From IMG/VR virus record IMGVR_UViG_3300030020_001035, positions 1 through 45,399 of that record: a stretch of 45,399 nt of DNA. The stretch is one strand, 5' to 3'. The number at the start of each line of letters is the position of its first letter. The stretch's first letter is position 1. The stretch comes from a virus. A program made the translations under genes and the position numbers. A model generated the notes under the pieces. It was not told where the DNA came from, made no database searches, and saw only the letters and a program-made list of their open reading frames with translations. This document shows, piece after piece, positions 595 to 41,846 of the stretch.

Positions 595-1182
595 TTACTT
601 TTTATACATCTCAAATAGAGACAGTCGTTTTCTCTTTTGTGCCGTAATACCGAGTGGGGCAAGTAGTTTTTCGTACTTTAAAATGACTTCCCAAGCTTGT
701 TCTGTGGTCATTCCGATATTTTCACCGGCTTCAATCTCAACGAATGTAGCGTATTTGCCATCTTCATTCTTTACGGTATAATAAACAATGTCTGCATCAT
801 CAAAGAAGTAGATATCGCAGGCCTTATCGATACTAAAATTTTTAATGTAACCAAGTCCTTCGCAAAACGCTACGATTAATGCTGGATCATTCTTGTCAAT
901 TCTCAAATTCACTTCAGTGCGAACCCAATTGTTTTGATCAATATGTTTCTTTTTAAAAGTAAGTTCTGAACGATGTTCGTCTTCACCACCCATTTTATTT
1001 TCGGCGGCCATTCTATACCTTAGAAATTCGTTTTCTTGTCTGACATAGTAGACATCTTTGGATTCTACATAGATAAAACTTTTAGGGTTTAAACTTTTGG
1101 CCAAATCCTTAAAGGCGATGCGGTTGATGTCATCTCCATTATACTTGCATTCTATTTCAAGAAATTTATGTTCTTCGGCCAT
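595..1182 (-). CDS. CYTH-like triphosphate tunnel metalloenzyme
   Basis: The 195-residue protein carries the CYTH signature ExExK near the N-terminus (E9, E11, K13 in FLEIECKY). It also has basic strands LRYR (54-57) and TFKKK (75-79), the acidic YFFDDAD segment near 125-131, and a late ExE strand (E149, E151 in FVEIEA). The family binds triphosphates and divalent metal inside a beta tunnel and includes thiamine or inorganic triphosphatases and class IV adenylate cyclases. The substrate cannot be told from sequence. The gene leads its operon. A promoter (1189-1217) ends 6 nt before the ATG and there is no Shine-Dalgarno sequence, so the mRNA is probably leaderless. Confidence 0.75.
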   Translation of the reverse strand: MAEEHKFLEIECKYNGDDINRIAFKDLAKSLNPKSFIYVESKDVYYVRQENEFLRYRMAAENKMGGEDEHRSELTFKKKHIDQNNWVRTEVNLRIDKNDPALIVAFCEGLGYIKNFSIDKACDIYFFDDADIVYYTVKNEDGKYATFVEIEAGENIGMTTEQAWEVILKYEKLLAPLGITAQKRKRLSLFEMYKK

Positions 1183-1188
1183 AATAGT

Positions 1189-1217
1189 ATACTAGCACGC
1201 TATTGTGTTAAATACAA
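1189..1217 (-). promoter_or_regulatory. promoter of the CYTH gene, leaderless type
   Basis: On the minus strand a -35 box TTGTAT (1212-1217) and a -10 box TAGTAT (1189-1194) are separated by 17 bp. The overlapping TATACT (1186-1191) is an alternative -10 box. Only 6 nt separate TAGTAT from the ATG at 1182, so the start point should fall at about the start codon. Confidence 0.6.
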
Positions 1218-1224
1218 GTCTTTT

Positions 1225-1758
1225 TCATTCATATTTAACATTTTTATGCTTATTGTTGATTTCCTTATTTTTTTCTATTTTCTCTTTCCTATTCGGAAAT
1301 TCTCCTGTTTCATAATAAACTTCATACATCCAGGTATCAAATTCCATGGACGCATACAATTTCCATTTTGGAAACTTTAAATTCGTTTCTTTGTATATGG
1401 TTTCCCAATATTGGGTTCCAGCTACCTCAACATCGTAAATCTTTTTCCTTAAAGTCTTTGGGGCTGGAGTTTCATAGATTTCATCTTCAAATAAATTCTG
1501 CCTATGGATGGCATCTTCGAATTTTAAATCTGGTTGCCTATTCTTTTCATGGATAAACCATAGGTGGTGGGCTATCTCATGTATTAGAGATATAACGGTT
1601 TCAGTTTTAGAACTTTGATGTTTTTTATAAATAAGAATTTCAGAACCGTCTAAGAGCCATCCACCGGCATCTCCCGATTTTTGACCACTAAACGATACTT
1701 TAACGCCCATTCCTTGTGCGTATTTCGTTAAACGGCTTAATTCTTCATCTCTAATCAT
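1225..1758 (-). CDS. HExxH zinc metallopeptidase-like protein
   Basis: The 177-residue protein contains a zinc-metallopeptidase helix, SLIHEIAHHLW, with H60, E61 and H64 as the HExxH motif. A third ligand is probably one of the Glu residues in the following helical region. The arrangement resembles small ImmA/IrrE-like or SprT-like phage peptidases, but no helix-turn-helix is visible. AAGGGA lies just upstream of the ATG. It sits 8 nt downstream of the GMP reductase-like gene and is probably co-transcribed with it from 2911-2939. The target is unknown. Confidence 0.6.
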   Translation of the reverse strand: MIRDEELSRLTKYAQGMGVKVSFSGQKSGDAGGWLLDGSEILIYKKHQSSKTETVISLIHEIAHHLWFIHEKNRQPDLKFEDAIHRQNLFEDEIYETPAPKTLRKKIYDVEVAGTQYWETIYKETNLKFPKWKLYASMEFDTWMYEVYYETGEFPNRKEKIEKNKEINNKHKNVKYE

Positions 1759-1766
1759 AACATCCC

Positions 1767-2910: not shown

Positions 2911-2939
2911 AATATACCATTTTTGAAAAATTTAAGCAA
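2911..2939 (-). promoter_or_regulatory. promoter of the GMP reductase operon, leadered type
   Basis: TTGCTT (2934-2939) and TATATT (2911-2916) are separated by exactly 17 bp. Transcription would start near 2904 and leave a short leader that includes the AGAGGG ribosome site before the ATG at 2888. This contrasts with the leaderless promoters elsewhere in the window. Confidence 0.5.
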
Positions 2940-11098: not shown

Positions 11099-11872
11099 TT
11101 ATTTCTTCTTTAAGGTGCATTTATTTTCACTAGCGGCAAGTATTTTGCCCGTTGCTACAGCCGTTGCTTGCGAAGTTCCAGAAAGTTTGATCCCGTAACC
11201 CGTAACGTCTTCGCCCATTTCCCATCTATTTACAAATCTGCCGTAATTAGATGTTTTAGATCTTACGCCATACTTGTCCAAATTACCCACAACAACTATT
11301 CGTTTGTCATACATTGCTGGATAAAAGTCTGTATCTCCCGTTCCAATCTCTTCTCCATCATTACCAGCCGCAGCAATGAACTTTCCGCCCTGATCTAGAA
11401 ACTTCCTTACTGCCCGTCCTTCTTCTGCGTTTTCTGATGGGCCTCCACCTGAATAATTGATAAAATCCGCTTTAAGTTCGGTAGCGAATTGTATTGCAGC
11501 GATGCTAGCTTTCAAATTTTGCTTATCGGTTTGATCTTTCGAATAGAATTTAAGGATCACGATACAATAATCTACATTGGATTTTTTGGCGTAATTCTCT
11601 ATGATCCCAACAATATTGGTACCATGTCCAACTGTGTCTTTGGGGATCAAATTACTAAGTGGTCTCATATATATAAAATTATGATCCTTTGAGAAATCTG
11701 TATGGCCTATACCACAAAGCTTTGTGTCTTTTTTGATTCCACTATAGCCAAATCCCGTATCGATTACGGCTATCCGTATTTGGCGCTTGACACATTTTCC
11801 AGATAACCCTACCGAATGCGCGTTTTGCGTTAGACCAAACAGTAGGGTTAAAAGGAGAGGAGTAAGTCTCAT
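11099..11872 (-). CDS. secreted subtilisin-like (S8) serine protease
   Basis: From the ATG at 11872 the protein has 257 residues. It opens with a signal peptide (MRLTPLLLTLLFGLTQNAHS). The S8 triad is complete: D38 in AVIDTGF, H83 in GHGTNIVG and S234 in SGTSQATAVA, with oxyanion N171 in AAGND. No pro-domain is visible, which is unusual for secreted subtilases. It should act in the periplasm or outside the cell. The upstream in-frame codon is TTG with no ribosome site. The ATG lies 6 nt after the -10 box of a promoter (11879-11907) and has no Shine-Dalgarno sequence, so it is likely leaderless. Confidence 0.8.
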   Translation of the reverse strand: MRLTPLLLTLLFGLTQNAHSVGLSGKCVKRQIRIAVIDTGFGYSGIKKDTKLCGIGHTDFSKDHNFIYMRPLSNLIPKDTVGHGTNIVGIIENYAKKSNVDYCIVILKFYSKDQTDKQNLKASIAAIQFATELKADFINYSGGGPSENAEEGRAVRKFLDQGGKFIAAAGNDGEEIGTGDTDFYPAMYDKRIVVVGNLDKYGVRSKTSNYGRFVNRWEMGEDVTGYGIKLSGTSQATAVATGKILAASENKCTLKKK

Positions 11873-11878: not shown

Positions 11879-11907
11879 ATAGTACCATCTATTTTGTTTA
11901 AAATCAA
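11879..11907 (-). promoter_or_regulatory. promoter of the subtilase gene, leaderless type
   Basis: TTGATT (11902-11907) and TACTAT (11879-11884) are separated by 17 bp, and 6 nt separate the -10 box from the ATG at 11872. The -35 box contains the TGA stop of the DnaE gene (11904-11906), so the promoter is embedded in the end of the upstream gene. Confidence 0.6.
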
Positions 11908-27908: not shown

Positions 27909-28241
27909 CTATTCTCCTGGATTCGGAGTTTTTGATATTGTGGAATTGGTTTCAATAAATTCTACCCATTGCAAATCAACGAGGATGAATTTACCAGTAA
28001 TGCCCTCGCAAGTAAATAGTTTAGATGACCATGCTTGAGTATGAAGGGCCTCTTCTCTTAAATACGCATACGATCCTGCAGGAATATCTCTTCCATCGGC
28101 AAGCCTAGTTCCAGCTAGAATTTTTAATTTTTTGATACCATCTCTTTGGCCTGGAGTCGCAATGCCGCCTACGACTTTTGATTCGAGACCTTTTTTGACA
28201 TACTCTTCTAGCAATAATCGGTTATTCAACGAAAAAATCAC
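27909..28241 (-). CDS. GroES-like co-chaperonin candidate
   Basis: The start is GTG at 28241 with GGAG at good spacing. The 110-residue protein can be aligned by eye along GroES: NRLLLEEYVKK for the first strand, then ESKVVGGIATPG (20-31) in the place of the mobile loop whose hydrophobic tripeptide docks to GroEL. Next comes DIPAGSYAYL (52-61) for the DVKVGDIVIF strand, and GKFILVDLQWVEFIE at the C-terminus. The same window encodes a GroEL-like protein. The similarity is low and the mobile-loop tripeptide differs, so it remains a candidate. Confidence 0.5.
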   Translation of the reverse strand: MIFSLNNRLLLEEYVKKGLESKVVGGIATPGQRDGIKKLKILAGTRLADGRDIPAGSYAYLREEALHTQAWSSKLFTCEGITGKFILVDLQWVEFIETNSTISKTPNPGE

Positions 28242-28438
28242 AATTCTGCTCCATGCTTCAAAAGTTTTACCATTTCAGAAAAAGATTTATTGATCACTTT
28301 TTCTTGTTCAAGATAATATTCTAACCTTTCAATTCGGTCTACTAGGGCCATAACTGTTTTGGCAGGTACGGACCTAACATTACCCAAATTAATATCTTCT
28401 TTCAGACAATCTAAATCAATTTGTAATTCTGATTCCAT
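28238..28438 (-). CDS. small coiled-coil protein
   Basis: The 66-residue protein is helical with leucine-rich heptads (VMALVDRIERLEYYLEQEK). AAGGAG precedes the ATG. Its stop overlaps the GTG start of the GroES-like gene. No family is recognised. Confidence 0.6.
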   Translation of the reverse strand: MESELQIDLDCLKEDINLGNVRSVPAKTVMALVDRIERLEYYLEQEKVINKSFSEMVKLLKHGAEL

Positions 28439-28454
28439 ATATTCTCCTTAAATT

Positions 28455-28483
28455 AGCATATATTAAATTAAAAGAAAAAACAA
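28455..28483 (-). promoter_or_regulatory. weak promoter upstream of the coiled-coil gene
   Basis: TTGTTT (28478-28483) and TATGCT (28455-28460) are 17 bp apart. The transcript would carry the AAGGAG ribosome site. The -10 box matches only four of six consensus bases, so confidence is low. Confidence 0.35.
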
Positions 28484-28485
28484 CA

Positions 28486-29523: not shown

Positions 29524-29531
29524 AATATGTT

Positions 29532-29554
29532 CCTTTAAGTTGCTGTCTTAAAAG
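29532..29554 (-). promoter_or_regulatory. hairpin hiding the ribosome site of the sigma gene
   Basis: On the minus strand CTTTTAAG and CTTAAAGG pair over 8 bp (one G-U) around a 7-nt loop. The 3' arm contains most of the Shine-Dalgarno sequence AAAGGA that serves the ATG at 29523. Read-through RNA from the UvsW operon would hold the site closed. Confidence 0.55.
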
Positions 29555-29555
29555 A

Positions 29556-29564
29556 TATATATCA
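29556..29564 (-). promoter_or_regulatory. extended -10 promoter of the sigma gene
   Basis: The element reads TGA-TATATA on the minus strand, without a clear -35 box. The start point would be near 29549, inside the 5' arm of the hairpin at 29532-29554, so RNA from this promoter would lack most of that arm and leave the ribosome site open. Confidence 0.45.
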
Positions 29565-29574
29565 TGGATTTTAA

Positions 29575-31083
29575 TTAAGTCTTTAATTTAATGTATTTAA
29601 TGAGGTTTTGTCCGCTATCCAAGTAGCATTCTATTCGTGATTGCAAGTGTCTTTCCATAGTACGATTATTTAAAATCTGGAAATCGTAGATAATTGCTTT
29701 ATCTTTGGGTATGCACTTAGACGCCCAAGGATTCGATTTTCCGAACCTAACGCTGCGGCCTACGGCGGCCTGCTTTACCTTGATATCGCTTGCTCCACCA
29801 AACCAATTTACTACAGAATGACATGGAAATATATTTACTCCCACATGTAGGCAACTTGTACCAATTAGAACCTTAACTTCATTTTTATTGAATTTTTCAA
29901 TACTGTCTGAGACCTTTACTTTTTGTAGGCCCAATTCTGCGAGTCTTTTGGTATTCTTTTCGCTATGTGCAATAGCATAAGGAATTTCCAGAAGAGGAAT
30001 TAGCATGGCTATCTGGCTAAGTTCTTCACATAAAACAAGAGTTTGTTTTCCTTGAGAAATAGCAGTTGCATTGGCTAATTTTGCAATAAAAGAAGCTATA
30101 TTTTTATTATTTAAAAAATGAGCCCTTTTTTGGGCAAGACCGTCATTAGCGCTGAAACTTGGATTAGAAGATTCTAAAGACACTACCCTAAACTCGTGTG
30201 CACAGATGTACCCTTTTTCAACTCCTTCCTGAGTCGTTAATTCGTATACTGTTTTGCCAATAATTGACTGTAATAGTGGGAGACTTCCATCTCCACGGCT
30301 TTGGGTTGCCGATAAAAACATACGGTAGGGAATTTTACCAAGAATTCCATGGCAGATTGTCTCTAAGGATTCTGCCGCAAAAGTATGGGATTCGTCTACA
30401 ATCAATACATCCAAATTCGAGAAGAATTCGTATTCTGGAGTTCCCTCCTTAATATTCGCAAGAGAGTCTCCAATAGCAATCGTAAATCTTTTATCGTACT
30501 TCTTTTTTCCGTCTCCTAAATAGCCTACATTTTTCTTACCTAAATGATGTTCAAAATTTTCAATAGATTCATGGAATATTCCTTTACCAGGAACTACGAT
30601 GCAGGCTCTTAAGCCCATTTCCTTACAAAGGTTTAATATTATAGCACTTTTCCCTCCTCCTGTAGTAATACTGACATTTCCATGTCTTTCCGCGATCAAA
30701 TTCTTTACAGAATCTTTTTGGTAGGGATGTAATTCAAATTTGAATGGGTTCTTCCAAGGAATTTTGGTGAAGTTTTTGTACTGGACGTTGTTTACGACTT
30801 GTAAATTGAAAGTTGATAAATGAGGTATGGATCCTGGCCTAATATAGAAGCCTTGTTCGTCCTCGAATACCAAACATTTCTTTAGATCCTTTTTAAGACC
30901 TTCTAGATGGGCTTCCCAAGAATTTATATTCTGATTTTTCCATCGCCAGTTGTCGGAATGTCTCTTAATTAGATGCTGAATAGCGGTATTGGTATAAGTG
31001 AGCTCTTTCCTTAGGGAATAAAGTTCATCTTCTGTATAATTCGATATATAGGCTTTAATGGGAGATACTATAGTTACGTCCAC
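29575..31083 (-). CDS. uvsW: UvsW-like SF2 DNA helicase
   Basis: The 502-residue protein has the SF2 motifs: Walker A TTGGGKSA (140-147), DESH (230-233), SAT (258-260), motif V LIGTSCLHVGVNI and motif VI QAAVGRSVRFG. The N-terminal 110 residues form a separate domain, as in T4 UvsW. Its likely work is branch migration and unwinding of R-loops and replication intermediates. The start codon is GTG, 7 nt after a -10 box and without a ribosome site, so it is probably leaderless. Confidence 0.85.
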   Translation of the reverse strand: MDVTIVSPIKAYISNYTEDELYSLRKELTYTNTAIQHLIKRHSDNWRWKNQNINSWEAHLEGLKKDLKKCLVFEDEQGFYIRPGSIPHLSTFNLQVVNNVQYKNFTKIPWKNPFKFELHPYQKDSVKNLIAERHGNVSITTGGGKSAIILNLCKEMGLRACIVVPGKGIFHESIENFEHHLGKKNVGYLGDGKKKYDKRFTIAIGDSLANIKEGTPEYEFFSNLDVLIVDESHTFAAESLETICHGILGKIPYRMFLSATQSRGDGSLPLLQSIIGKTVYELTTQEGVEKGYICAHEFRVVSLESSNPSFSANDGLAQKRAHFLNNKNIASFIAKLANATAISQGKQTLVLCEELSQIAMLIPLLEIPYAIAHSEKNTKRLAELGLQKVKVSDSIEKFNKNEVKVLIGTSCLHVGVNIFPCHSVVNWFGGASDIKVKQAAVGRSVRFGKSNPWASKCIPKDKAIIYDFQILNNRTMERHLQSRIECYLDSGQNLIKYIKLKT

Positions 31084-31090
31084 TTATAGG

Positions 31091-31119
31091 AATATAACTC
31101 TAAAAATGTTAAAATACAA
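31091..31119 (-). promoter_or_regulatory. promoter of the UvsW gene, leaderless type
   Basis: TTGTAT (31114-31119) and TATATT (31091-31096) are separated by 17 bp. Seven nt separate the -10 box from the GTG start at 31083. It lies back to back with the plus-strand promoter at 31131-31139. Confidence 0.65.
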
Positions 31120-31130
31120 ATAAATTCTCG

Positions 31131-31139
31131 TGATATACA
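31131..31139 (+). promoter_or_regulatory. extended -10 promoter of the plus-strand chaperonin/head block
   Basis: The element reads TGA-TATACA. No good -35 box is present at 17 bp. The transcript would start near 31146 and include the AAGGAG site before the ATG at 31164. It is the only clear promoter seen ahead of the chaperonin, terminase and portal genes, so it may be a middle or late phage promoter. Confidence 0.45.
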
Positions 31140-31163
31140 TATTTAAAGACCAAGGAGATTATA

Positions 31164-31421
31164 ATGGCTAACGATTCTATTCTTGAATACCTAAAAACTT
31201 GTGAAACAAAAATTATCAAACCGGAAAATGGAGAACCATTGGCCATTATTGTGAGAGGCGACGATCTCGACAGCGGAATTCTTAATGAATTATCGCAAGC
31301 TTTCAAAGAAGTTCTTGGGAATGTCAATAGGCGAGTCCCAATTATTGGTCTTCCTACGGATCATGATATTGATTTTATTACACTAAAAGAAGTTTTGGAG
31401 AAAACAAATGGCTTATCGTAA
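31164..31421 (+). CDS. hypothetical protein upstream of the chaperonin
   Basis: The 85-residue protein opens the plus-strand block with a strong AAGGAG ribosome site. It contains a strand PLAIIVRGDDLD and a helix LNELSQAFKEVLGNV, with a second strand RRVPIIGLPTDHDID. Its end overlaps the chaperonin start by 14 nt, so the two are co-translated. No family is recognised. A chaperonin accessory role is possible by position only. Confidence 0.65.
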   Translation: MANDSILEYLKTCETKIIKPENGEPLAIIVRGDDLDSGILNELSQAFKEVLGNVNRRVPIIGLPTDHDIDFITLKEVLEKTNGLS

Positions 31422-33195
31422 GGCAAAAACGGCACCTAAACTTTATCTGGCAGACAAAGAAAAAATTAAATCAATCGTATTGGAAACTATGAACGATATC
31501 AGTCTGTTAGTTGGTGCCACTTTAGGACCCGGAGGCAAACTTTGCCTTTTGGAGTCGGACCACCAGGACATTTCGGATCGTATTAGCAAAGACGGAATTT
31601 CTGTATTCCAATCGATGGCTCATCAAAATTCATTTAAGCATAGTATTATTGAGGTCGCTAGATCTTGTTCACTTAGAACCGCAAATGAAGCTGGGGATGG
31701 TACGACTACAACCGCAGTTTTAGCGAATGAACTAATCAAAAACATCTTTGGTTTTTGTGAAAGAAATCCCAAAGAAAGTCCACAGAAAACCGTAAGACGT
31801 ATTAAAAAAGTTATGGAAGAAATACTGCTACCCTACATTAAAGAACAGAGCATTCCAGTAACTCAGGAATCCAAAGAATTATTATTAAAGGTGGCTACGG
31901 TCAGTGTTAATGGAGAAAAGGTTCTTGCGGAGGCTGTACTTAAATGTTTTGAAGAAGTTGGATTTGGCGAAAATAGTCACGTTACAATCCGAGAACTTCC
32001 TGGTCCAAGTGGTTATAAGGTTGAACGAATTAAGGGATACCCAATTCCAATTGGTCTTGAGGAAAGTAATGGTAAATACTTTACTAGTTTTATCAACGAT
32101 CAGGGAAATCAACGCTGTTATTTGGAAAACCCAAAATTTATAATTTTTGATGGCGCTATACAAGACCTATTATCGTTGAGCCCTCTTTTTAATGCGATTG
32201 AGGCTAGAATCCAAGAAGATCCTGCGGCAGGAAAAGACTTGAAAAGCATCGTATTGGTTGCTAATGGATTTTCAGAATCTGTAATCTCAACTCTTTCTTT
32301 TAACTTCGAACAAAAAGGAACTCTACGGGTACTCCCAATTAAGGCTCCTATGGCACAATTCATGAACGCCCAAAGTCATTGGTTGGTCGATTTGGCAGCT
32401 TTTACTGGAGCAAAAGTGTTTGGTCTTAAAAATCAGATTCATGAGGCTACGCTTGAAGATTTAGGAAGTGGAATGGAAAGTTTTGAGTCTACTCGCTTTA
32501 GAAGTACCTTAGATGGCACACCAGATGAATTCAATATTGAATATCGTGCCGAAGAACTCGAAAAACAACTTAAGAGAGCAGAATCAAAAGCAGAATCTTC
32601 TTGGTTAGAAGAGCGTATTGGAAAAATTACGTCTGGGATTGCAAAACTTACAGTTGTAGGCTCTTCTCCAGGCGATATTAAGGAACGATGTGATCGGGCT
32701 GAAGATGCGGTGTGTTCTATTAGAAGCAGTCTTACCAATGGAATCCTTCCAGGAGGAGGACGGGTAATTCTTAATATGGCACTAAAAATTTCAGAAGAAT
32801 TGGCAGAAGGGGATCCTGCACGAGAAATTCTTATGCCTTCTTTGGTCAGTGTTGTAAATCGATTATTGGAAAATGCTGGATATAACGAAGAGCAAGCCTC
32901 TGAAGTACTTGCACACCTAGTTAATAACCCAGAAGACGTTTATGATATCGAAAACCAAGTATTCGGAAAACCCGAAGAGTTGGGACTTTTTGATGCTTGT
33001 AAGGCTGTAAGCGAAGCTTTAAGAAATTCAGTTGAAATTGCAGGCGTGCTTGGAACTCTAGGAGGAATTGTTGTTCACCCAAGGGATGGTGATTTCGAGC
33101 GCAAAGAAGCGAGTCTAGACGAGGAGTGGCGTAAGGTAAGTCAGAATCCAGATGCTTATCAGAATCCCGCCCTAAATAGGGCTCGTGGGCTGTAA
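31408..33195 (+). CDS. groEL: GroEL-like chaperonin
   Basis: The 595-residue protein is a group I-type chaperonin. It has ATLGPGG (37-43), SKDGISVF, and the nucleotide motif GDGTTT (96-101, with D97 as the metal-binding Asp). The C-terminal equatorial motifs include SGIAKLTVVG, CDRAEDAV (with the catalytic Asp equivalent) and NGILPGGG. It is about 45 residues longer than E. coli GroEL, and the apical domain is very divergent. It should fold phage proteins, probably capsid proteins given its place just before terminase and portal. GGAG precedes the ATG. A GroES-like partner is encoded at 27909-28241 on the other strand. Confidence 0.85.
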   Translation: MAYRKAKTAPKLYLADKEKIKSIVLETMNDISLLVGATLGPGGKLCLLESDHQDISDRISKDGISVFQSMAHQNSFKHSIIEVARSCSLRTANEAGDGTTTTAVLANELIKNIFGFCERNPKESPQKTVRRIKKVMEEILLPYIKEQSIPVTQESKELLLKVATVSVNGEKVLAEAVLKCFEEVGFGENSHVTIRELPGPSGYKVERIKGYPIPIGLEESNGKYFTSFINDQGNQRCYLENPKFIIFDGAIQDLLSLSPLFNAIEARIQEDPAAGKDLKSIVLVANGFSESVISTLSFNFEQKGTLRVLPIKAPMAQFMNAQSHWLVDLAAFTGAKVFGLKNQIHEATLEDLGSGMESFESTRFRSTLDGTPDEFNIEYRAEELEKQLKRAESKAESSWLEERIGKITSGIAKLTVVGSSPGDIKERCDRAEDAVCSIRSSLTNGILPGGGRVILNMALKISEELAEGDPAREILMPSLVSVVNRLLENAGYNEEQASEVLAHLVNNPEDVYDIENQVFGKPEELGLFDACKAVSEALRNSVEIAGVLGTLGGIVVHPRDGDFERKEASLDEEWRKVSQNPDAYQNPALNRARGL

Positions 33196-33203
33196 TAATA
33201 AAA

Positions 33204-35072
33204 ATGAATTTTAAATCTCTAAATGAAGATCAAAAAAAGGAAATGGCGGAACTCATGTTCTCGCCTCTTACCTGTGCAGATGATGTTAAGGATTGGGCTA
33301 GGATGTTCCTCGATCTCGAACTACCTCTCGAAATAACCGATCCCGATTCTAACACTTCACCCCTAGATGCTATATGGCAGGTATACCATACAGCAAAAAA
33401 TAATTCTGGAGATATAAATCCTGGGTTCATTCTAATGTCTTGCCGAGAAGGAATGAAAACCGTTTCGGTTGCTATTCTAGAACTTTTATTGATGTTGCAC
33501 TTTTCCAGAACTGTTGCTCATGGTGCAGCTACAGAAACGCAATCGGCAGTAGCAATTGGTTACATTAACGATTTCGTAATGAAGATCTCGGCCCTATTAG
33601 AAATCAGCGGCTGGGAGAATATGACGCAAAACAAGCGTACTATTCAATACAGGACTCCCAATGGAGAAACCCCTTTCATTAAAATCGTTATTTGTACCGC
33701 TAAGGGTATGAACAGTTTGCATGCCAATTTTTTATTTCTAGATGAGTTAGACTTGGCCGATAAAAAGGCAATTAAGCAAGCGGTAAATATAACAGGATAT
33801 AGTCGTGGATTTCATGGCATAAAGGTCTATCTTAGTACTAGAAAATATAGTTTTGGTAACATGCAAGATGCTTTAGATGCAGCGCCAGAAACCAATTATA
33901 AAGTTTTAAATTGGAATATCCTTGATGTTACAGAGGCATGCCCAACTTCAAGACATAAACCAGAATTGCCAAAAAAAGACATGTTTGTTGCGAAGGGACT
34001 GCCCTTGATACAAATTTCTGGAGAAGAATTTAATGGCCTTCCAGATATCGAGAAAGTTAAGTATGATTTGCTACCAAATGTTCATGCTGGCTGCGTAGGC
34101 TGTAAATTACTTCCCGTATGTAGAACTAGGCTTTCTGAGAAACCACAAACTGCTACTGGTGGATTTTATAAACCAATCACGAGCGTTATACAGAAATTTG
34201 CGGAGAATGATTCTGATGTAGCCTCTGCAGAATTAATGTGTTGGAAGCCGGGTTCTGAAGGATTGGTTTACCCAAGATACTCTGATAAAATTGATGTAGG
34301 AAACGTGATTTCTATAAAGAAAGCGTATGAAACTTTAATTGGTACTAAGGCCCCTTCCAATATTACCGTAGAAAATATTTACGCTATTATAAGACAGTTA
34401 GATCTGCCCGTTTCTTGTGGTGTGGATTGGGGACATACCCATGATGCGGTTATTTTGGCTATGGTCACTGCCCCAAATGGTGAAGTATGGGTCATAGATT
34501 GTTTCGCTAGTCCAAAACTTGAAATACAAGATTTGGTTCCAGTGGCATTAAACTTTAAAGATAGATACAATGTAAGAAAATGGTATTGTGATACGTCTGC
34601 TCCGGCCTATATTAAAGCATTTGTTAGGAATGGAATGCCGTGTCCAAAATTTACCAAGGATGTAATGGGTGGTATCGGAAGTGTTAGAAGTAAAATAATG
34701 ACTGCTACCGGTATAAGACTTTTAAAAGTATTAGAAACAGAAGGTACTAAAAAAGTCAGAACCGCCATCATGAAACATAGATTCTTACTGGATGGTCAAG
34801 GACAAGTTACTTCTACTCCAGATGATGATGCTGGTATTGCAGATATATGCGATTCCCTAAGATATTTGGCACAGAACATGTTTCCTTTAAGTGGGCCTCA
34901 AAGACCCAATATTACGGCTATGGATCCTTCTGCACCCAATATCCCAGAAGCACAAAAACATACCCCTGAACAACATGAAATGATGCAAAGAGAACTAGAT
35001 AGGGCTCTCGGTAAGGCCACAGTGAAGGGTGGTACGGGCAAGCGTGGGGGCTTCCATTGGAGCTTTGAGTAA
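33204..35072 (+). CDS. terL: terminase large subunit
   Basis: The 622-residue protein has an ATPase half with a variant Walker A, CREGMKT (80-86), and Walker B FLFLDE ending in D180-E181. The nuclease half has acidic residues D408 (CGVDWGHTHD), D463 (WYCDTSAP) and D550 (ADICDSLRYL). A Cys cluster CVGCKLLPVC (297-306) between the halves could bind zinc. It packages DNA through the portal encoded 0.8 kb downstream. The ribosome site is weak, so translation may depend on the chaperonin gene 8 nt upstream. Confidence 0.88.
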   Translation: MNFKSLNEDQKKEMAELMFSPLTCADDVKDWARMFLDLELPLEITDPDSNTSPLDAIWQVYHTAKNNSGDINPGFILMSCREGMKTVSVAILELLLMLHFSRTVAHGAATETQSAVAIGYINDFVMKISALLEISGWENMTQNKRTIQYRTPNGETPFIKIVICTAKGMNSLHANFLFLDELDLADKKAIKQAVNITGYSRGFHGIKVYLSTRKYSFGNMQDALDAAPETNYKVLNWNILDVTEACPTSRHKPELPKKDMFVAKGLPLIQISGEEFNGLPDIEKVKYDLLPNVHAGCVGCKLLPVCRTRLSEKPQTATGGFYKPITSVIQKFAENDSDVASAELMCWKPGSEGLVYPRYSDKIDVGNVISIKKAYETLIGTKAPSNITVENIYAIIRQLDLPVSCGVDWGHTHDAVILAMVTAPNGEVWVIDCFASPKLEIQDLVPVALNFKDRYNVRKWYCDTSAPAYIKAFVRNGMPCPKFTKDVMGGIGSVRSKIMTATGIRLLKVLETEGTKKVRTAIMKHRFLLDGQGQVTSTPDDDAGIADICDSLRYLAQNMFPLSGPQRPNITAMDPSAPNIPEAQKHTPEQHEMMQRELDRALGKATVKGGTGKRGGFHWSFE

Positions 35073-35106
35073 ATTTTCCAATCTTAACTACTAAGAGGTA
35101 TACCTA

Positions 35107-35910
35107 ATGAAAACCAATCTACAATTTTTTCTGAATAGTTACGCGGATTTAGTCCCAACTACTGTACCTTCTCAAAATAACTTTAAATGGTTAAGAGAAA
35201 TAAATGGAATTCCATTTAATATAGAAAATGATCAACAAATTCAAGTACTTCCTTCGGTAACAACCCCAAATATCGTTCCTTATCCATTTTCCGCTATAAC
35301 GAACTCTGGAAGCTATTCTATCAACGGTACGCCTCTTTTGGTTGTATTCGGGAGTCCTGTAGGAATAGCTATAGATCAATTGATCGTAGGACCTTCAATC
35401 CCGGTTGGAACTACCGTTCTAAGTATTGCCCCCATTCAATACAACTTCACCGTATCGGGCTCAAATGCGACTGCTGGGGCCGTTTATAGTAGTAATGGAC
35501 TGAACTTCACTGTTTCTGGAACCATAGTGAGCGGGTCCTTATTAGTCTCTACAGGGGGAGCGACACCTCCATCTGCTCCTGGAACTCTAACTTTGGTGAG
35601 CGGTACTGGGGATGCAACTATTGCATTTTCTGGTTTTACGAACGTTACTAACGTGACTATGTCGCAGGCTGCAACTAATACTACCAATGAAGAAATACTT
35701 TTCTATCAACCAGCTGCCTTTATCTATTTTGAGAGCGATCAACAGGTCTCCGTGATATATAATAATGGAACGGCTATGGCTTTAAATCCATTTCAGGTCA
35801 ATGGGGTAACCCAACCAGCAGTATTTTTTATGGCTGGCCCATGTTACTCTCTTTCGGTTACAAACATGAGCGCTACTACTGCAAATCTGTTTTTCGCGTC
35901 GATGGGTTAA
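35107..35910 (+). CDS. virion-type protein with beta-rich insert domain
   Basis: The 267-residue protein has strongly beta-rich, Gly/Ser/Thr-rich sequence with few charges. Residues about 112-174 (starting FTVSGSNATAGAVYSSNG and containing SGTGDATIAFSG) form a unit that looks like a domain I associate with other phage structural proteins. It lies between terminase and portal. It is probably a head decoration or head-associated protein, which is inferred from composition and place. AGAGGT precedes the ATG. Confidence 0.6.
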   Translation: MKTNLQFFLNSYADLVPTTVPSQNNFKWLREINGIPFNIENDQQIQVLPSVTTPNIVPYPFSAITNSGSYSINGTPLLVVFGSPVGIAIDQLIVGPSIPVGTTVLSIAPIQYNFTVSGSNATAGAVYSSNGLNFTVSGTIVSGSLLVSTGGATPPSAPGTLTLVSGTGDATIAFSGFTNVTNVTMSQAATNTTNEEILFYQPAAFIYFESDQQVSVIYNNGTAMALNPFQVNGVTQPAVFFMAGPCYSLSVTNMSATTANLFFASMG

Positions 35911-35913
35911 TAT

Positions 35914-37728
35914 ATGAGCGATGAAAATAACGAAAAGTCTGCAATAAAAAAAGACATGTCGCTGACGCTTTCGGCTGAAATCAACATGGATCCCCTTGCT
36001 CAGTTAAAAGCTGACAGTACCACCTTACGTCCATTACAAAAAGCATTAAATGATTCGATAGGAAAAGCCACAGAACGAGCTCCTGCGCTTACCTTCATGG
36101 AAAGCCCAAATTACAACGATGCTTATGCCGGTGTAGTTAAAGCTAAGAGAAATGAAATTCCAGATGCTCTTTTGAAACTCGTAAGGGTTCAAGATCACTT
36201 AGTTGCTGCTATCTTAAGGACTCGCGCAGGTCAAATTAGCCAATTTGGTAAGAAGCGTGCCGATCGTTTCGATAAAGGTATTGAGATTAAAATCAAACCT
36301 GAATTCTATAAACTTTTAAATACGGAACAGTTTGAAAAAGTTACAGAACGAATTAAAAGACTTGAAACAATTCTCTTAAATTGCGGTCATACAGAAGGTC
36401 TTGAAAACCAACAAAAAATGACTTTAAGTCAGTATTTGGCCCTTTCTGTGGAGAACGCTCTTACTTTTGGTTGGATGGGTACAGAGGTCATCTATGATAG
36501 AGAATCAGAACCAGATGCAGAAGGTAGATTCCCATTTAATCGTTTTAGACCAATCGATTCCGGCACCATCTTTAAGACAGTAAGAAATGGTGAGCAGGCT
36601 GGAGTTAATACCAGAATTCTTGCCATTAAAGAACTTGAAAGAATTACTGGCGATAAAATCGGAATTGATTACGATAAACTTAGAGAAGATAAGTATGCGT
36701 GGTGTCAACAAGTAGAAGGTATTGCAAAACAGTATTTCACTCATGAAGAATTGTTGATGCACGACTTCTATCCATGTACAGATGTTGAAAAGAACGGATA
36801 TCCTGTACCACCAATTGAAACTGCAATTTCTTCAATTACTACCCATATTAGTATTGATACCTGGAAAAGACTTTATTTCCAAAATGGTAGAGCTACTCGT
36901 GGAGCATTGGTCATTAAATCGGATGACGTTGATTCTCCTACATTAGAGAAATTCAGACAAGAGTTTCAAGCAAGTATTAATGGTGTACAAAACTCATTCC
37001 GTACTCCTTTAATGGGTATATCTCCAACCGAGAGCATTGATTGGCTTTCATTTGCAAACGATAAAGCAGATGATTCATTTGAATTCATTTACGACCAAAT
37101 TGCAAGGAACATTCTCGCGACCTTCCAAATGTCTCCTGATGAACTTCCAGGATATGGCCATTTAAGTAAGGGTTCTAATAGTCAGACTTTAAGCGAATCA
37201 AATAACGAATTCAAATTAGAAGCTGCTCGCGACTCTGGATTTGTTCCAATTATCCAGCATCTTGAGACATTTTTTAATCAAAGGTTGATTCCGATCATTG
37301 ACCCTATTCTAGCAAAAATCGTAGTATTCAAAATTGCTGGATTAGATGCTGAATCTAAGGAACAAGAATCTACTCGCTTACAACAAGATCAGCCCACTCA
37401 CATGACCTATGATGAGGTGCTGAACTATGTCGATAAACCAACTATCGGTGTAGGAATGGCTGGAGAAGTACCATTTAACGAAAGAATTCAACTCGTTTGG
37501 GATAAATACTTAGATGTTGGTCAAATAAAAGGACGCTTTATGGGCAGTCCTGCAGCGTATGTGGATCCACTTATGAGATTCAAACGAGATCCATTTTCGT
37601 TGCAGTCATTGCAATTAATGGCTCAAATAGCACCAAATTCGGTGGCTGCTATGTATGCTCCAAAACCACACTCTTTAGATTTGTTAAAATGGTTAATTTC
37701 TGATATGTTAGAAGAGGACGAAGACTAA
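35914..37728 (+). CDS. portal protein
   Basis: The 604-residue protein shows portal-like features. There is an N-terminal clip and stem region with basic and helical segments, then the motif WLSFANDKADDSFEFIYDQI. A segment FQMSPDELPGYGHLSKGSN is followed by LSESNNEFKLEA, which is characteristic of phage portal proteins. It forms the dodecameric ring where the terminase docks. It starts 3 nt after the structural gene upstream and is followed by a tiny membrane protein and a probable scaffold. Confidence 0.8.
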   Translation: MSDENNEKSAIKKDMSLTLSAEINMDPLAQLKADSTTLRPLQKALNDSIGKATERAPALTFMESPNYNDAYAGVVKAKRNEIPDALLKLVRVQDHLVAAILRTRAGQISQFGKKRADRFDKGIEIKIKPEFYKLLNTEQFEKVTERIKRLETILLNCGHTEGLENQQKMTLSQYLALSVENALTFGWMGTEVIYDRESEPDAEGRFPFNRFRPIDSGTIFKTVRNGEQAGVNTRILAIKELERITGDKIGIDYDKLREDKYAWCQQVEGIAKQYFTHEELLMHDFYPCTDVEKNGYPVPPIETAISSITTHISIDTWKRLYFQNGRATRGALVIKSDDVDSPTLEKFRQEFQASINGVQNSFRTPLMGISPTESIDWLSFANDKADDSFEFIYDQIARNILATFQMSPDELPGYGHLSKGSNSQTLSESNNEFKLEAARDSGFVPIIQHLETFFNQRLIPIIDPILAKIVVFKIAGLDAESKEQESTRLQQDQPTHMTYDEVLNYVDKPTIGVGMAGEVPFNERIQLVWDKYLDVGQIKGRFMGSPAAYVDPLMRFKRDPFSLQSLQLMAQIAPNSVAAMYAPKPHSLDLLKWLISDMLEEDED

Positions 37729-37729
37729 T

Positions 37730-37843
37730 ATGGGATTCTTTAAATTTTGTGAGTATTTTATTGGATGTACTTTAGGTCTCGTAACTTTTCTTGGCCTAAT
37801 TTGGTGGCTTTTATATAACATAGCTGCTAGTTTTAAGAATTAA
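37730..37843 (+). CDS. 37-residue membrane protein
   Basis: A short frame with ATG at 37730 and TAA at 37841-37843 lies between the portal gene (1 nt upstream) and the Gln/Met-rich gene. The product reads MGFFKFCEYFIGCTLGL and continues with a hydrophobic span ending in a short basic tail. One transmembrane helix is predicted. Function is unknown, and holin-like or membrane-docking roles are possible. Confidence 0.5.
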   Translation: MGFFKFCEYFIGCTLGLVTFLGLIWWLLYNIAASFKN

Positions 37844-37854
37844 GAGGATTATAC

Positions 37855-38424
37855 ATGAAAAATCAAGATTATAAACTTAAATATGAAGACCTAAAACTGA
37901 AATTTATTGATGCTGTCGATGTCTCTTTTCGCCTTGGATTTGAACAAGGTGCCCAATCTGCTCAAATGCAGCAGGCTCAACAAGATAAGGCTGATGCTCA
38001 ACAAGCAGAACAAATGCAAATGCAGGGACAGCAAATGCAAGGTCAAGATCCCAACAATCCGGGATCTCCAGATAGTTCAGGATCTGAAATGGACCAACAT
38101 ATTAATACCTTGGAATCTATGGTAAATAAACAGGACCCTAGTTCTCCTGAAACAGCCAATATGATGAAGGCCTTGAATGAGATGAAAACTCTTGTTGAAA
38201 TGAAAAAATCAGAAAAAATGATTAATTCAATATCAAATGCAATGAAGCCCAAATTCACTATCGGTAAGGGCGCAAATAAAAATTTGAGTGAGCATGGCAA
38301 AAAAGCATTAAATGATCAAGAAAAAATCGTTGATGAGCTCATGAAGAGTTTCGCACTTGAAGAGCAAAAAGCTTCGGAAGCAATCGTAAAAACTTTAAAT
38401 TTTGAAAATTTGTTAAAAGGTTAA
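37855..38424 (+). CDS. Gln/Met-rich helical protein, possible scaffold
   Basis: The 189-residue protein has an N-terminal helix, a Gln/Met/Ala-rich middle (about 40-65, such as QQAEQMQMQGQQMQGQ), a Pro/Ser spacer and a helical, charged C-terminal half. The high charge, low complexity and position between portal and MuF are typical of scaffolding or head-core proteins, but no motif proves it. The ribosome site AAGAGGA precedes the ATG. Confidence 0.55.
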   Translation: MKNQDYKLKYEDLKLKFIDAVDVSFRLGFEQGAQSAQMQQAQQDKADAQQAEQMQMQGQQMQGQDPNNPGSPDSSGSEMDQHINTLESMVNKQDPSSPETANMMKALNEMKTLVEMKKSEKMINSISNAMKPKFTIGKGANKNLSEHGKKALNDQEKIVDELMKSFALEEQKASEAIVKTLNFENLLKG

Positions 38425-38428
38425 TTTT

Positions 38429-39193
38429 ATGTGGGGCATAAGCAGTTCTGGCAAGGAATCTATTTCCATTGCAATAGAGAAAATGTTTGATGCTTTGGCG
38501 TACAAATTTCTTGGTAATATACCTAAAGTAAGAAATAAATCTCCTTTTTTTAGTTCTACACCTAAATTTAGTCTTGCCAATTTATTTTTGCAAGCCATGA
38601 ATAATAAAGAACTAAATCATTACGATAAAGATGTTCTAAGATCTACACTAAACACTTCTTACGGATACATAGAGGGGCTAAAAAGTAAAACCAGTTCAAA
38701 TGTTATTCATGCCGTGGATTCCTTGATTAGGGAAGCAAAATCCAACAATTCTCATGTTGATGCCAAACAAGTTTCGGATATTATTTCTTCTGCGATGAAA
38801 AAAGCTAGAAGTGACATTAAATTAATCGCAGAAGCTGAATCCACTAAGACCAGAAATCTTGGTCACACTATGGAAATAGTGGATAAATCCAAACAAGAAG
38901 GTATTGAAGACCCTAATGTATTTTTCGTTATTGTAAGAGATGGCGAAACCTGTAAGGAATGTCTTAGACTTCATATGATGGATGACGAGATTACACCACG
39001 AGTCTGGAAGATGTCAGAGTTATCTATGGGATATCACAAAAGAGGCGAATCTAGACCGTCTTCTTGTGGTGAGCATCCCTTTTGTCGCTGTTCATTGCAG
39101 CAATTACCTCCAGGATGGGGCTTTAAAGATGGATTCGTACATTTTATTTCGTTGGGATACGATGAGTACAACGAACAAAGAAATGTCGCCTAA
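38429..39193 (+). CDS. Mu gpF-like head morphogenesis protein
   Basis: The 254-residue protein has the C-terminal MuF signature: VIVRDGETCKECLRLHMMD (around 170-188), then CGEHPFCRCSLQQLPPG, with Cys and His able to bind metal. The N-terminal half is helical. MuF proteins are minor head proteins that sit near the portal, fitting its order after portal and scaffold candidate. Its stop is 1 nt from the stop of a convergent minus-strand gene, with no terminator between. Confidence 0.75.
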   Translation: MWGISSSGKESISIAIEKMFDALAYKFLGNIPKVRNKSPFFSSTPKFSLANLFLQAMNNKELNHYDKDVLRSTLNTSYGYIEGLKSKTSSNVIHAVDSLIREAKSNNSHVDAKQVSDIISSAMKKARSDIKLIAEAESTKTRNLGHTMEIVDKSKQEGIEDPNVFFVIVRDGETCKECLRLHMMDDEITPRVWKMSELSMGYHKRGESRPSSCGEHPFCRCSLQQLPPGWGFKDGFVHFISLGYDEYNEQRNVA

Positions 39194-39194
39194 A

Positions 39195-39863
39195 TCACTT
39201 GACGTTGTATTCCCCATTTTCAACTAAAATTCTAATCGGCTTAAATGCTTTCATGTAGTCATCATTTAGTAACGATGCATTTGCGGCAATATATTGACCA
39301 ATTTTGCTGGCACCAGCTTCATCATGGATATGTCCAAAAACATGTAATTTTAATTCTTTTAATTGCTCAATTCTTGCTCGGAGATCTAGACACCCAACAT
39401 TTTCACCTTTTGGGTTATAGCGATTCATGACCCTGTCCCTAATTTGGTATGCTGGACCGTGGGTTATGAGTATTTGGGTATCATCTGGAATTGCATCCCA
39501 ATGGCGCTTAATCTTCTCCCCACGATCTTGCATGAATGCCCAATCAAAAAAGGTTGGTGTAATAGGAGATCCATAGATTTTAATTCCTTCGATCTCAATT
39601 CTCTCATCAATCAGAAGGGTTATATTTCTTTTATTGCATTCTTCTCGATATCTTGCAGTTTCTTTTTCAAGGCCAAAATCATGATTACCGGGAACAAAGA
39701 TTTTGTGCTTATAAGGCTGCTTTTGAAACCACTGCAAAAAGGCATGGATCTCACCGCTTTGACCCCGACCTGTAGCATCTCCAGAGTGAATTAGAAGGTC
39801 TCCACCTTTTAAAGTGAATTCCTTGTGCTTATTATGAGTATCTGAGATTAGATCGATTTTCAT
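39195..39863 (-). CDS. calcineurin-like metallophosphoesterase
   Basis: The 222-residue protein has the full motif set: D8 and H10 in ISDTHNK, GD (28-29), GNHD (59-62), H135 in THGPAY and GHIH (177-180). It resembles the small MPPED/YfcE-like phosphodiesterases rather than SbcD. Substrates in this group include cyclic nucleotides and phosphodiesters. The ATG overlaps the ThyX stop (ATGA). Confidence 0.75.
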   Translation of the reverse strand: MKIDLISDTHNKHKEFTLKGGDLLIHSGDATGRGQSGEIHAFLQWFQKQPYKHKIFVPGNHDFGLEKETARYREECNKRNITLLIDERIEIEGIKIYGSPITPTFFDWAFMQDRGEKIKRHWDAIPDDTQILITHGPAYQIRDRVMNRYNPKGENVGCLDLRARIEQLKELKLHVFGHIHDEAGASKIGQYIAANASLLNDDYMKAFKPIRILVENGEYNVK

Positions 39864-40756
39864 TTTTTGAAACTCGTGACATTTTCATTTTCAAGAGTTT
39901 TTCTGTATTGATACCATCCCTGAAGATTTCCAGATCGCTGAAAGGCTGTAGGTCTGTTAATACCTTCATCCCATCTTGCTAAAGCCTGAGCTTGATGTTC
40001 TGCTGGAGAAGCGTGAATTGGTACTCCTCCCAATAGTCGATTGTAAAGTTGTAAATCTTCTTCTATAGTAGATTTTTTCCCTTCATGATTTAAATAGGAT
40101 ACCCTAGCACAACGAGCAACAGATCTCTTTATGGCTATATCGAAAAATCTACGCCCTGTAGTGCCAGATTCACACACATAATATGCCGTCTCTGTCAAAT
40201 CTTCATCATTGTCCATAAAGGGGAGATGCCAACTGCCCTCTGATAGTTTTTTTGGTCTATTTGTAATATATTGATCGTACATCAGGTCAGCAAGAGCGTG
40301 AATCTCAGGTTGTGCCATCTCATGGCAACGTAAAGCAAAGAAGTTATCGTAATCTGTAGCAGTACAAACTACCGTAATATGAGCAAATGGTTCAAGAATT
40401 CGATTTGCATATTGCTTATGGACTTCTAGATTCTCTAGATTACGGGCTTGGATGACGGCCATATCTCTAGCATTTAGCCATGCAAGTTTGGCAAGATCAT
40501 GTGCCTCCCCATCCAATGCATCGCCGCCTTGCATTCCTTTTTGATTCTTTGTAAAAGCCAAAGGAATGGCTGGATTGTCAATTACCATTTGAATTTGCTT
40601 CTTCACTGGAATGGCACGAGAAGACGAAGCGTTCCTAGAGAAGACCCTGTGCGTCATAAATTCTGAGTGAATGAATCGGGGATAAGTTAAGACAAATGTA
40701 GTAATACGAACGTCATTTGGACCAACTGAATCGGCGACAATTTTTGCTTCAATCAT
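39860..40756 (-). CDS. thyX: flavin-dependent thymidylate synthase (ThyX)-like
   Basis: The 298-residue protein has the ThyX motif as THRVFSRNASSSR (35-47), which matches RHRxxSxNxxSxR except that the first Arg is Thr35. Further segments include NFFALRCHEMAQPEI and a late SVARCARVSYLNHEG. It should make dTMP from dUMP with FAD, NADPH and methylenetetrahydrofolate. It has an AGGAGA ribosome site inside the end of the methyltransferase gene. The loss of the first motif Arg may reflect substrate change and should be noted. Confidence 0.75.
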   Translation of the reverse strand: MIEAKIVADSVGPNDVRITTFVLTYPRFIHSEFMTHRVFSRNASSSRAIPVKKQIQMVIDNPAIPLAFTKNQKGMQGGDALDGEAHDLAKLAWLNARDMAVIQARNLENLEVHKQYANRILEPFAHITVVCTATDYDNFFALRCHEMAQPEIHALADLMYDQYITNRPKKLSEGSWHLPFMDNDEDLTETAYYVCESGTTGRRFFDIAIKRSVARCARVSYLNHEGKKSTIEEDLQLYNRLLGGVPIHASPAEHQAQALARWDEGINRPTAFQRSGNLQGWYQYRKTLENENVTSFKK

Positions 40757-41831
40757 TTTTATCTCCTAATAATTGTTTTACTATGGCCGCGATTACAGGA
40801 ACCGCAACTGCATTTCCAATCTGCTTATATGCTACAGCATCTTTTTGTGGAAAGATATAGGTTTCTGGAAAACCTTGAAGTCTAGCACATTCTCTTGGCG
40901 TTAATTGTCTTAATCCTTGCTTGGAATCCACTGCAGGAGTAGAAAATGTAGCTATGGTAGGCGAGATACCATTAACTGAATAGATTTTATCCTGCTGTCT
41001 AGGTAAACCACTAGGGGTATCTCCATACAAAATAGCTACTGATTCGATCTTACCCGTTGGTTGAGTGGGTTTCTTCGAATTATCTTCGTAGAGCCATTTA
41101 ATCACTTCGTACCTAGAATGTCCATTAGGAAAGTCGTGATTTTTCTTACCTGGACCAGAATTGGGTCCGCCGCCGAGAATAGTTCTTTTTTTCCAAAGAT
41201 TAGAAATAAGGTATTTATCAGAAACTTTTTTCTCCAATATATCCTCAATGGATTGAGGGCCAATAGGAGAAGGGGTTGGGAATTTAAACTCTTGCTTTAA
41301 ATCAGATCTAATACCAACAAAGAAAATACGTTCTCGTTGCTGTGGTACTCCGAAATCTACGGCATCCAAAAGTTTAGTATGAACATCGTATCCTGCTTCG
41401 TTTAAGTTTTGTACAATAGTGTCAAAACAAGAACTTCCATCCATATTCTTCATGGATAGAAGCCCCTTAACATTCTCGAATACAAAATATTTAGGTTTTT
41501 TTGCTACTAAAATCCTGACAAGTTCTAGGAATAGGTTATCCCGTTCTTCTTGCTCTCCAATTGTTTTGTCGTTTTTATTGAACCATTTTCCATTCCTAGA
41601 GAATGGCTGACAAGGAAAACCACCAAAGATGATGTCGTGATCTGGGATATTCTGTACTTCTAGTTCACGTATATTGCCGTAAGAATTGATACCAAAATTA
41701 TTGAAGAAGGTTTCAGAAACATTCTTATCGTAATCTATGGCCAGTACGCATTTAGCTTCGTCTCCCAAAACGGAGTGGATACCTAAACTAAAGCCGCCGA
41801 TGCCTGAAAATGTGTCTACGTATCTAACCAT
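40749..41831 (-). CDS. dcm: C5 cytosine DNA methyltransferase
   Basis: From the ATG at 41831 the protein has 360 residues. It has motif I DTFSGIGGFSLG (6-17), the catalytic Cys74 in GGFPCQPFS, motif VI FENVKG (118-123), motif VIII QQRERIFFVGIR and motif X YKQIGNAVAVPV. No restriction enzyme is adjacent, so it appears solitary, perhaps protecting phage DNA. The frame extends 13 codons upstream from GTG, but that part lies in a terminator. The ATG lies 6 nt after an extended -10 box and has no ribosome site, so it is probably leaderless. Confidence 0.85.
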   Translation of the reverse strand: MVRYVDTFSGIGGFSLGIHSVLGDEAKCVLAIDYDKNVSETFFNNFGINSYGNIRELEVQNIPDHDIIFGGFPCQPFSRNGKWFNKNDKTIGEQEERDNLFLELVRILVAKKPKYFVFENVKGLLSMKNMDGSSCFDTIVQNLNEAGYDVHTKLLDAVDFGVPQQRERIFFVGIRSDLKQEFKFPTPSPIGPQSIEDILEKKVSDKYLISNLWKKRTILGGGPNSGPGKKNHDFPNGHSRYEVIKWLYEDNSKKPTQPTGKIESVAILYGDTPSGLPRQQDKIYSVNGISPTIATFSTPAVDSKQGLRQLTPRECARLQGFPETYIFPQKDAVAYKQIGNAVAVPVIAAIVKQLLGDKND

Positions 41832-41837
41832 ACTTTG

Positions 41838-41846
41838 ATTGTACCA
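41838..41846 (-). promoter_or_regulatory. extended -10 promoter of the methyltransferase, leaderless type
   Basis: TGG-TACAAT forms an extended -10 element. Six nt separate it from the ATG at 41831, and no -35 box is evident because the terminator hairpin occupies that place. Confidence 0.5.

Follow-up and report, generated by a model that had tools for sequence, protein, structure and literature searches.

The DNA analysed here, called the window, is a 45,399-base fragment from an IMG/VR virus record (IMGVR_UViG_3300030020_001035, positions 1 to 45,399; 38% GC), and the subject of this report is a set of six minus-strand genes in which a sigma70-like promoter ends 6-8 nucleotides (nt) before the start codon, with no Shine-Dalgarno (SD) sequence, an arrangement pointing to leaderless mRNAs. 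Among the named phages of the collection compared, Myxococcus phage Mx1 comes closest, with identities of 40% for GroEL, 32.5% for DnaE, 29.5% for the large terminase, and 38.6% for a putative sigma factor; judged by these shared core genes, the fragment derives from an Mx1-like phage. An Rfam scan and a tRNA scan of the window gave no matches. The six genes, their promoters, a terminator, and two leadered promoters serving as internal controls are as follows.

595-1182, minus strand: CYTH-domain gene, ATG at 1182 (Pfam CYTH, E 1.1e-6, from residue 9).
1189-1217, minus strand: CYTH promoter, TTGTAT-17-TAGTAT, 6 nt to the ATG; the weakest of the six.
11099-11872, minus strand: subtilase gene (Pfam Peptidase_S8), N-terminus signal-peptide-like.
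11879-11907, minus strand: subtilase promoter, TTGATT-17-TACTAT, 6 nt to the ATG.
16287-16922, minus strand: exonuclease gene, DNA polymerase exonuclease subunit family (phrog_192, E 2.4e-21).
16931-16958, minus strand: exonuclease promoter, TTGACT-16-TATACT, 8 nt to the ATG; alternatively 18-TACTAT, 6 nt.
22024-24363, minus strand: SbcC-like gene, start GTG (phrog_77, E 1.5e-32).
24370-24398, minus strand: SbcC promoter, TTGAAA-17-TATTAT, 6 nt to the GTG.
29575-31083, minus strand: UvsW-like helicase gene, start GTG, divergent from the groES/groEL genes (phrog_16, E 1.2e-49).
31091-31119, minus strand: UvsW promoter, TTGTAT-17-TATATT, 7 nt to the GTG.
40749-41831, minus strand: C5 cytosine methyltransferase gene, start ATG (Pfam DNA_methylase, E 9.6e-83).
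41838-41846, minus strand: methyltransferase extended -10, TGGTACAAT (TGG-TACAAT), 6 nt to the ATG.
41856-41886, minus strand: intrinsic terminator directly upstream of the methyltransferase promoter (13-bp stem, T tail; fold -20.5 kcal/mol, z -4.25).
2911-2939, minus strand: leadered promoter, internal control, TTGCTT-17-TATATT; ATG 2888 at 22 nt, with GAGGG.
42924-42952, minus strand: leadered promoter, internal control, TTGACA-17-TATTAT; start 42881, 42 nt downstream, with AAGGAG.

All six promoters lie where an earlier note on this DNA had placed them and with the spacings it gave, five having a TTG -35 box 16-17 base pairs (bp) from the -10 and one an extended -10, and none of the six starts has an SD match of at least 4 nt (0/6). 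The observation of close promoters without SD sites is confirmed. Most other genes are, as the note had also held, SD-led or coupled to an upstream gene: of 52 other starts, 31 have an SD match and 13 more abut or overlap the gene before them, and among the eight with neither, two are mis-set starts. At internal codons of the near-identical relative G001, SD matches of this length occur at 85 of 659. The -35 of the subtilase promoter overlaps the TGA stop codon of dnaE. The distinctive trait of the six promoters is their position relative to the start codon, not their strength.

The gene caller and the sigma70 score were our own, the weights approximating Escherichia coli values. Promoters scoring at least 9 and ending 4-8 nt before a codon gave seven hits in the window, at 5 of 87 early in-frame ATG or GTG codons (candidate starts that include alternative starts of a single gene) and at none of 316 internal codons, so that the spacing is not equally common before random in-frame ATGs; the CYTH promoter falls below this threshold. 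When one start per gene was taken, a score of at least 8.5 at 5-8 nt was found at 5 of 55 starts, whereas 300 dinucleotide shuffles gave 0.5 such starts on average and never more than 3. The CYTH promoter, at 8.4, lies just under this cut, and the other 4-nt offsets tried yielded 0 or 1 starts at a score of 8.5.

The relatives compared were the near-identical G001, G002, and G006, the diverged G003/G004, G005, G008, G007, and G010, and six further long records. Summed over ten relatives, strong promoters lie at 5-8 nt before 56 of 2772 early and 37 of 10179 internal codons. Singly, the early and internal counts are 7/160 vs 2/659 in G001, 4/71 vs 2/309 in G004, 3/130 vs 4/468 in G005, 8/266 vs 5/975 in G008, 7/345 vs 1/1297 in G013, 3/309 vs 3/1157 in G015, 2/319 vs 1/1262 in G016, 4/346 vs 1/1291 in G017, 12/339 vs 9/1253 in G018, and 6/487 vs 9/1508 in G020; outside the sum are G007 (2/34 vs 0/132) and G010 (0/89 vs 2/303). 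Among control phages, no excess at 5-8 nt was found in the first 50 kb of T4 (0/143 vs 2/395), the first 50 kb of ICP1 (2/132 vs 3/331), or Mx1 (1/418 vs 4/1459); Mx1, at 56% GC, differs from the window group in having its promoter maximum 25-36 nt ahead of starts. The first 50 kb of the Thermus phage phiYS40 has a close peak in the same test (8/93 early vs 3/292 internal). Over 12 relatives, a set that is not independent (G001 and G004, for example, are 80-84% alike in UvsW and DnaE), TTGAC stands at 34-36 nt before early starts 28 times, compared with 9.8 expected (P 5e-5); in phiYS40 the figures are 7 and 0.

Counts of 7-mers upstream of starts yielded pieces of CAATCTTA and of TGATATA. In the same 12 relatives, CAATCTTA occurs within 100 nt of early starts 85 times, compared with 2.7 expected, and its distances are two-peaked: a close group of 11 starts at 12-14 nt is followed by three in the range 15-22 nt and then by many from 23 nt on; Mx1 has only 6 copies of CAATCTTA in its genome. 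Starts were split by close or far motif distance, and an SD match was again 4 nt or more. Behind CAATCTTA, such a match is present at 0/11 close vs 35/45 far starts; the corresponding figures are 2/15 vs 42/51 for TGATATA, 0/13 vs 18/23 for TTGACW-N16-18-TANNNT, and 0/7 vs 15/27 for a fourth, stricter pattern, TGNTATANT. Three features of the window belong to this class.

28486-29523, minus strand: phage sigma factor gene (phrog_351, E 3.3e-5; 38.6% to the Mx1 putative sigma factor).
35079-35086, plus strand: CAATCTTA motif in its SD-led form, 28 nt before the start at 35107.
43465-43472, plus strand: CAATCTTA motif, 43 nt before the start at 43508.

The sigma factor of the window may be the reader of the CAATCTTA promoters, and host sigma70 would read the TTGAC and TGN-TANNNT promoters. 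If transcription begins at the A of the ATG, a close CAATCTTA would sit at about -13 to -6, which is also the placement of T4 late promoters. Ten G008 genes behind CAATCTTA were scanned: four match tail, baseplate, or head-protease families (one match is weak, E 0.004), one matches endonuclease VII, and five have no match. Close copies of CAATCTTA in G016 (13 nt) and G017 (15 nt) are each followed by a gene whose beginning, by eye, resembles that of the window terminase. A separate observation is that the divergent gene pair at 43452-43508 of the window has between its genes an inverted CAATCTTAT...ATAAGATTG that looks like a pair of CAATCTTA promoters facing each other.

Upstream DNA of orthologues was read directly, and the geometry was found to be kept for five of the genes (subtilase, SbcC, UvsW, exonuclease, and CYTH) in some diverged relatives, where the sequence between the promoter elements diverges while the arrangement of -35, -10, 6-7 nt, and start codon stays. 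The -35 and -10 of the subtilase gene are 16-17 bp apart, with 6-7 nt from the -10 to the ATG, in nine lineages (window/G001, G003/G004, G005, G008, G013, G015/L230, G017, G018, and L229), of which the other eight are 32-69% identical to the window; the architecture is not found in L232, and six loci below 31% identity (L234-L239) were excluded as non-orthologues. For SbcC, the geometry occurs in the window, G003/G004, G005, G007, G008, L150, and L098, and less regularly in L091, and is absent from G010. The exonuclease gene of G003/G004 has TTGACT-17-TATCAT-6 and that of G008 is similar with a weaker -10; in G005 the architecture is missing and an SD-like AGAGG is present instead. The CYTH orthologue of G004 has TTGAAT-17-TAATAT-6-ATG, and that of G005 is without the architecture. 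For UvsW, the geometry is seen in the window, G013, G018, and L069 (a contig of a Saprospiraceae metagenome-assembled genome, MAG); six more distant loci have an extended -10, TGGTANNNT, with 5-6 nt to the ATG, the type of element found at the window methyltransferase, and G010 has an extended -10 in the form TGCTATGAT. The architecture is absent from UvsW of G003/G004, G005, G007, and G008. As a side observation, a TTGTGGTATAAT-like extended -10 is very common upstream of starts in G020 (L249-L257), and some copies lie at leaderless distance, for example at UvsW (L217/L218).

These comparisons also bear on the possibility that the annotated starts are wrong, the mRNAs having a normal leader and translation beginning at an in-frame codon further downstream. 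The exonuclease gene does have a second in-frame ATG 21 nt downstream; by eye, however, this codon has no SD site. The SbcC and UvsW proteins of relatives are homologous from residue 1, the signal-peptide-like segment of the subtilase and the first motif of the methyltransferase start at the first codons (by eye), and the two genes behind close CAATCTTA motifs begin, again by eye, like the window terminase. Mis-set starts are thus a very improbable explanation. In a side observation made by eye, a signal-peptide-like N-terminus was noted both in the subtilase (11099-11872) and in a ClpP-like protease (24797-25684).

The surroundings of SbcC and UvsW were tabulated in 34 chosen SbcC loci (29 of 62 loci and 5 others) and 15 chosen UvsW loci (14 of 20 and L069), picked after the promoter regions had been seen and therefore not blind; near-duplicates, more diverged SbcC loci (among them L175, whose TTG is preceded by a promoter scoring 8.6), and a single UvsW locus lacking a reachable start were omitted. 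An abutting frame was defined as any open frame of at least 50 codons ending within -30 to +20 nt, some of which are spurious. Nine SbcC loci have a close promoter (six without an abutting upstream frame and three with one), 23 abut a frame without a close promoter, and two show neither; L178, one of the nine, abuts an upstream gene, and its promoter is probably due to chance. Eight UvsW loci have a close promoter (six without an abutting frame and two with one, the window itself being scored as abutting because a frame opposite the groES-like gene was counted), seven are abutting only, and none shows neither. In this sample, SbcC and UvsW thus appear to be mostly either leaderless or directly behind another gene.

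A simple mechanism would account for these observations. A promoter lying far upstream would give an mRNA leader with an SD site, whereas a -10 ending 5-8 nt short of the start codon, most often 6, would have RNA polymerase begin at the A or G of that codon or no more than 1-2 nt away from it. The resulting mRNA would be leaderless, and the ribosome would recognise its 5'-terminal AUG or GUG with initiator tRNA (as a 70S particle), as in known leaderless mRNAs; both the transcription start point and this mode of translation are inferred. The gap separating close from far spacings fits a simple rule by which an mRNA has either no leader at all or one with room for an SD site. One likely gain is compactness, as the promoter would take up some 30 bp and share bases with the preceding stop codon; a second is insulation, in that read-through transcripts from upstream would not be translated. 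Leaderless initiation at the six genes is well supported, because of the spacing statistics, the geometry kept in diverged relatives, and the near absence of SD sites exactly at close promoters. We therefore give a probability of about 0.86 to the reading that phages of the Mx1-like group start the genes at the head of a transcript in two ways, leaderless or SD-led, and that the six window genes are of the leaderless kind.

Several results weigh against this reading. The promoter weights were written after the six sites had been seen, though they were not fitted to them. Each promoter is a modest match to the consensus, and a plain 9-of-12 consensus scan passes only those of exonuclease and SbcC and sets that of CYTH in another register (TTAACA-16-TACTAT, 1 nt before the ATG). 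The score from the -10 alone discriminates poorly and gives weaker enrichment, and promoter-like sites are not in excess overall (37 found vs 51.4 in shuffles at 28000-45399). Across the group, the close mode is a minority (the 56 of 2772 early candidate starts given above), the excess is not significant alone in G005, G015, G016, or G020, nor in G010, and the looser TTG[AT][CAT] is barely enriched at 34-36 nt (87 vs 66.5 expected, P 0.019). In the chosen loci the close promoter is missing from SbcC in 25/34 and from UvsW in 7/15. The methyltransferase site has no diverged orthologue, and because the gene is found only in near-identical G001, the support for it comes from the upstream terminator and the extended -10. 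Four of the six genes trail a same-strand gene by 31-241 nt and could be read from upstream too; the scan found no terminator just upstream of CYTH, subtilase, or exonuclease, and for SbcC the only terminator-like site in the vicinity lies inside the preceding gene and ends 306 nt upstream.

The lack of an overall excess, the weaker enrichment of the -10 score, and the GC content of 38% are in line with chance, that is, with AT-rich intergenic DNA yielding -10-like hexamers near starts from which good ones were picked. However, the comparisons with upstream shuffles, with internal codons, and with different offsets and phages all contradict this, as does conservation, and chance is an extremely improbable source of the pattern. 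The position of the four trailing genes, together with the missing terminators, favours another view, in which the promoters are real, most translation of the six genes takes place on longer transcripts initiated upstream, and the close promoters give minor or non-translated RNA. That view does not suit the methyltransferase, which lies behind a terminator, or UvsW, which is divergent; leadered transcripts of the six genes would be without an SD site (0/6), and transcription from upstream would not need the 6-7 nt spacing to be kept across diverged relatives. Translation from longer transcripts therefore has a distinctly low probability compared with leaderless initiation. The description of the six genes as operon-leading holds only in part: UvsW and the methyltransferase fit it, and it is not clear for CYTH, subtilase, exonuclease, and SbcC, which, with no terminator directly before them, might also be read from upstream.

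The earlier note had gone on to interpret the six genes as having leaderless mRNAs, whose coordinated use would be a distinct expression programme. The first part is well supported and the second is not. All three motif classes, that preceding several tail and head genes among them, contain leaderless as well as SD-led starts, and because of this mixing a separate, timed programme is not supported. Depending on the relative, SbcC and UvsW appear leaderless or lie directly against the gene before them, which also counts against a programme. No class was found to be mostly leaderless in the manner of a temporal class of the phiYS40 type, as judged by motif class. In 13 relative records, which may be incomplete, no initiation factor 3 (IF3) C-terminal domain and no S1 domain are encoded. 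We consider it rather unlikely that the distance between promoter and start is a two-state switch, leaderless or SD-led, serving host-sigma70 and phage-sigma (CAATCTTA) promoters alike; if it were, an infection that altered initiation in the host could shift the whole set of leaderless genes up or down at once, whatever their promoter class.

A close parallel is phiYS40, another large phage with close -10 elements, whose leaderless genes are many; here the leaderless mode is a minority, alongside SD-led starts and across three motif classes. The 5' ends of phiYS40 transcripts have reportedly been mapped. The leaderless mRNA of lambda cI has also long been known; cI, however, is a single repressor gene of a temperate phage, and the present case concerns several genes of large phages. 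A passage of a review (PMC3594737) describes the middle and late mRNAs of phiYS40 as mostly leaderless, with IF2 up and IF3 down, and the host phylum of phiYS40 is listed as rich in leaderless genes, averaging 39.4% (Zheng 2011, PMC3160421). Passages of PMC3160421 and PMC12340547 describe a TANNNT about 12 bp upstream of the start as a mark of leaderless genes in many bacteria; the former scores 8 of 33 delta-Proteobacteria genomes as having TA-led leaderless genes, with an average of 15.8%, and contains the suggestion that leaderless genes avoid translation on spurious upstream transcripts. The window genes resemble such bacterial TA-led genes (Zheng et al., 2011; for Deinococcus-Thermus, Zhong et al., 2025) in having TANNNT and apparently no leader. 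Unlike these genes of cellular genomes, they belong to a phage group, usually have a -35, and are accompanied by a non-sigma70-like motif, CAATCTTA, with the same two-peaked spacing. The cI mRNA responds to initiator-tRNA supply, according to a passage of PMC9031893, and phage transcripts are called "often leaderless" in a passing remark in PMC5312081. No paper on leaderless genes in Mx1-like phages was evident among the matches listed from the open-access literature (titles and abstract starts).

The mechanism itself is known, and what would be new is a leaderless start conserved across a phage group and combined with several promoter types. This indicates that leaderless translation in phages is not limited to repressors or to hosts such as Thermus. 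In uncultured, Mx1-related peat phages, the genes that appear to use leaderless starts include those of recombination and DNA processing and, in two relatives, terminase. Gene finders that expect an SD site will misplace such starts, and the depleted zone between the two spacing peaks is a simple sign by which other phage genomes could be screened.

A terminase alignment scan of bacterial genomes gave three hits, two in one bog MAG labelled Deltaproteobacteria and one in the Saprospiraceae MAG. The bog MAG is a candidate host, and 42 host-like contigs (291 genes) remained from its 57 loci after masked ones (leaving 51) and then low-GC or phage-like ones had been dropped. They show a slight excess of close promoters (6/606 vs 8/2371, P 0.047), which becomes 10 vs 37 (P 0.5) at a lower threshold and 23 vs 47 (P 0.009) by the -10 alone; strong promoters are commonest 25-36 nt upstream. 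The same MAG (G011, behind L068) carries SbcC relatives on five contigs and so probably holds several Mx1-like phages, which makes it either a host lead or a binning artefact.

Two further observations concern other genes. At 31164-33195 (plus strand) of the window, a short gene precedes and slightly overlaps a diverged groEL and was taken as groES from its position only. The large terminase gene is split in two diverged relatives, G008 (100444-103554, minus strand) and G010 (27655-30693, minus strand), at a shared position corresponding to residues 85/86 of the window protein, and the interruption of about 1.24 kb may be an intron, an intein, or a homing element.

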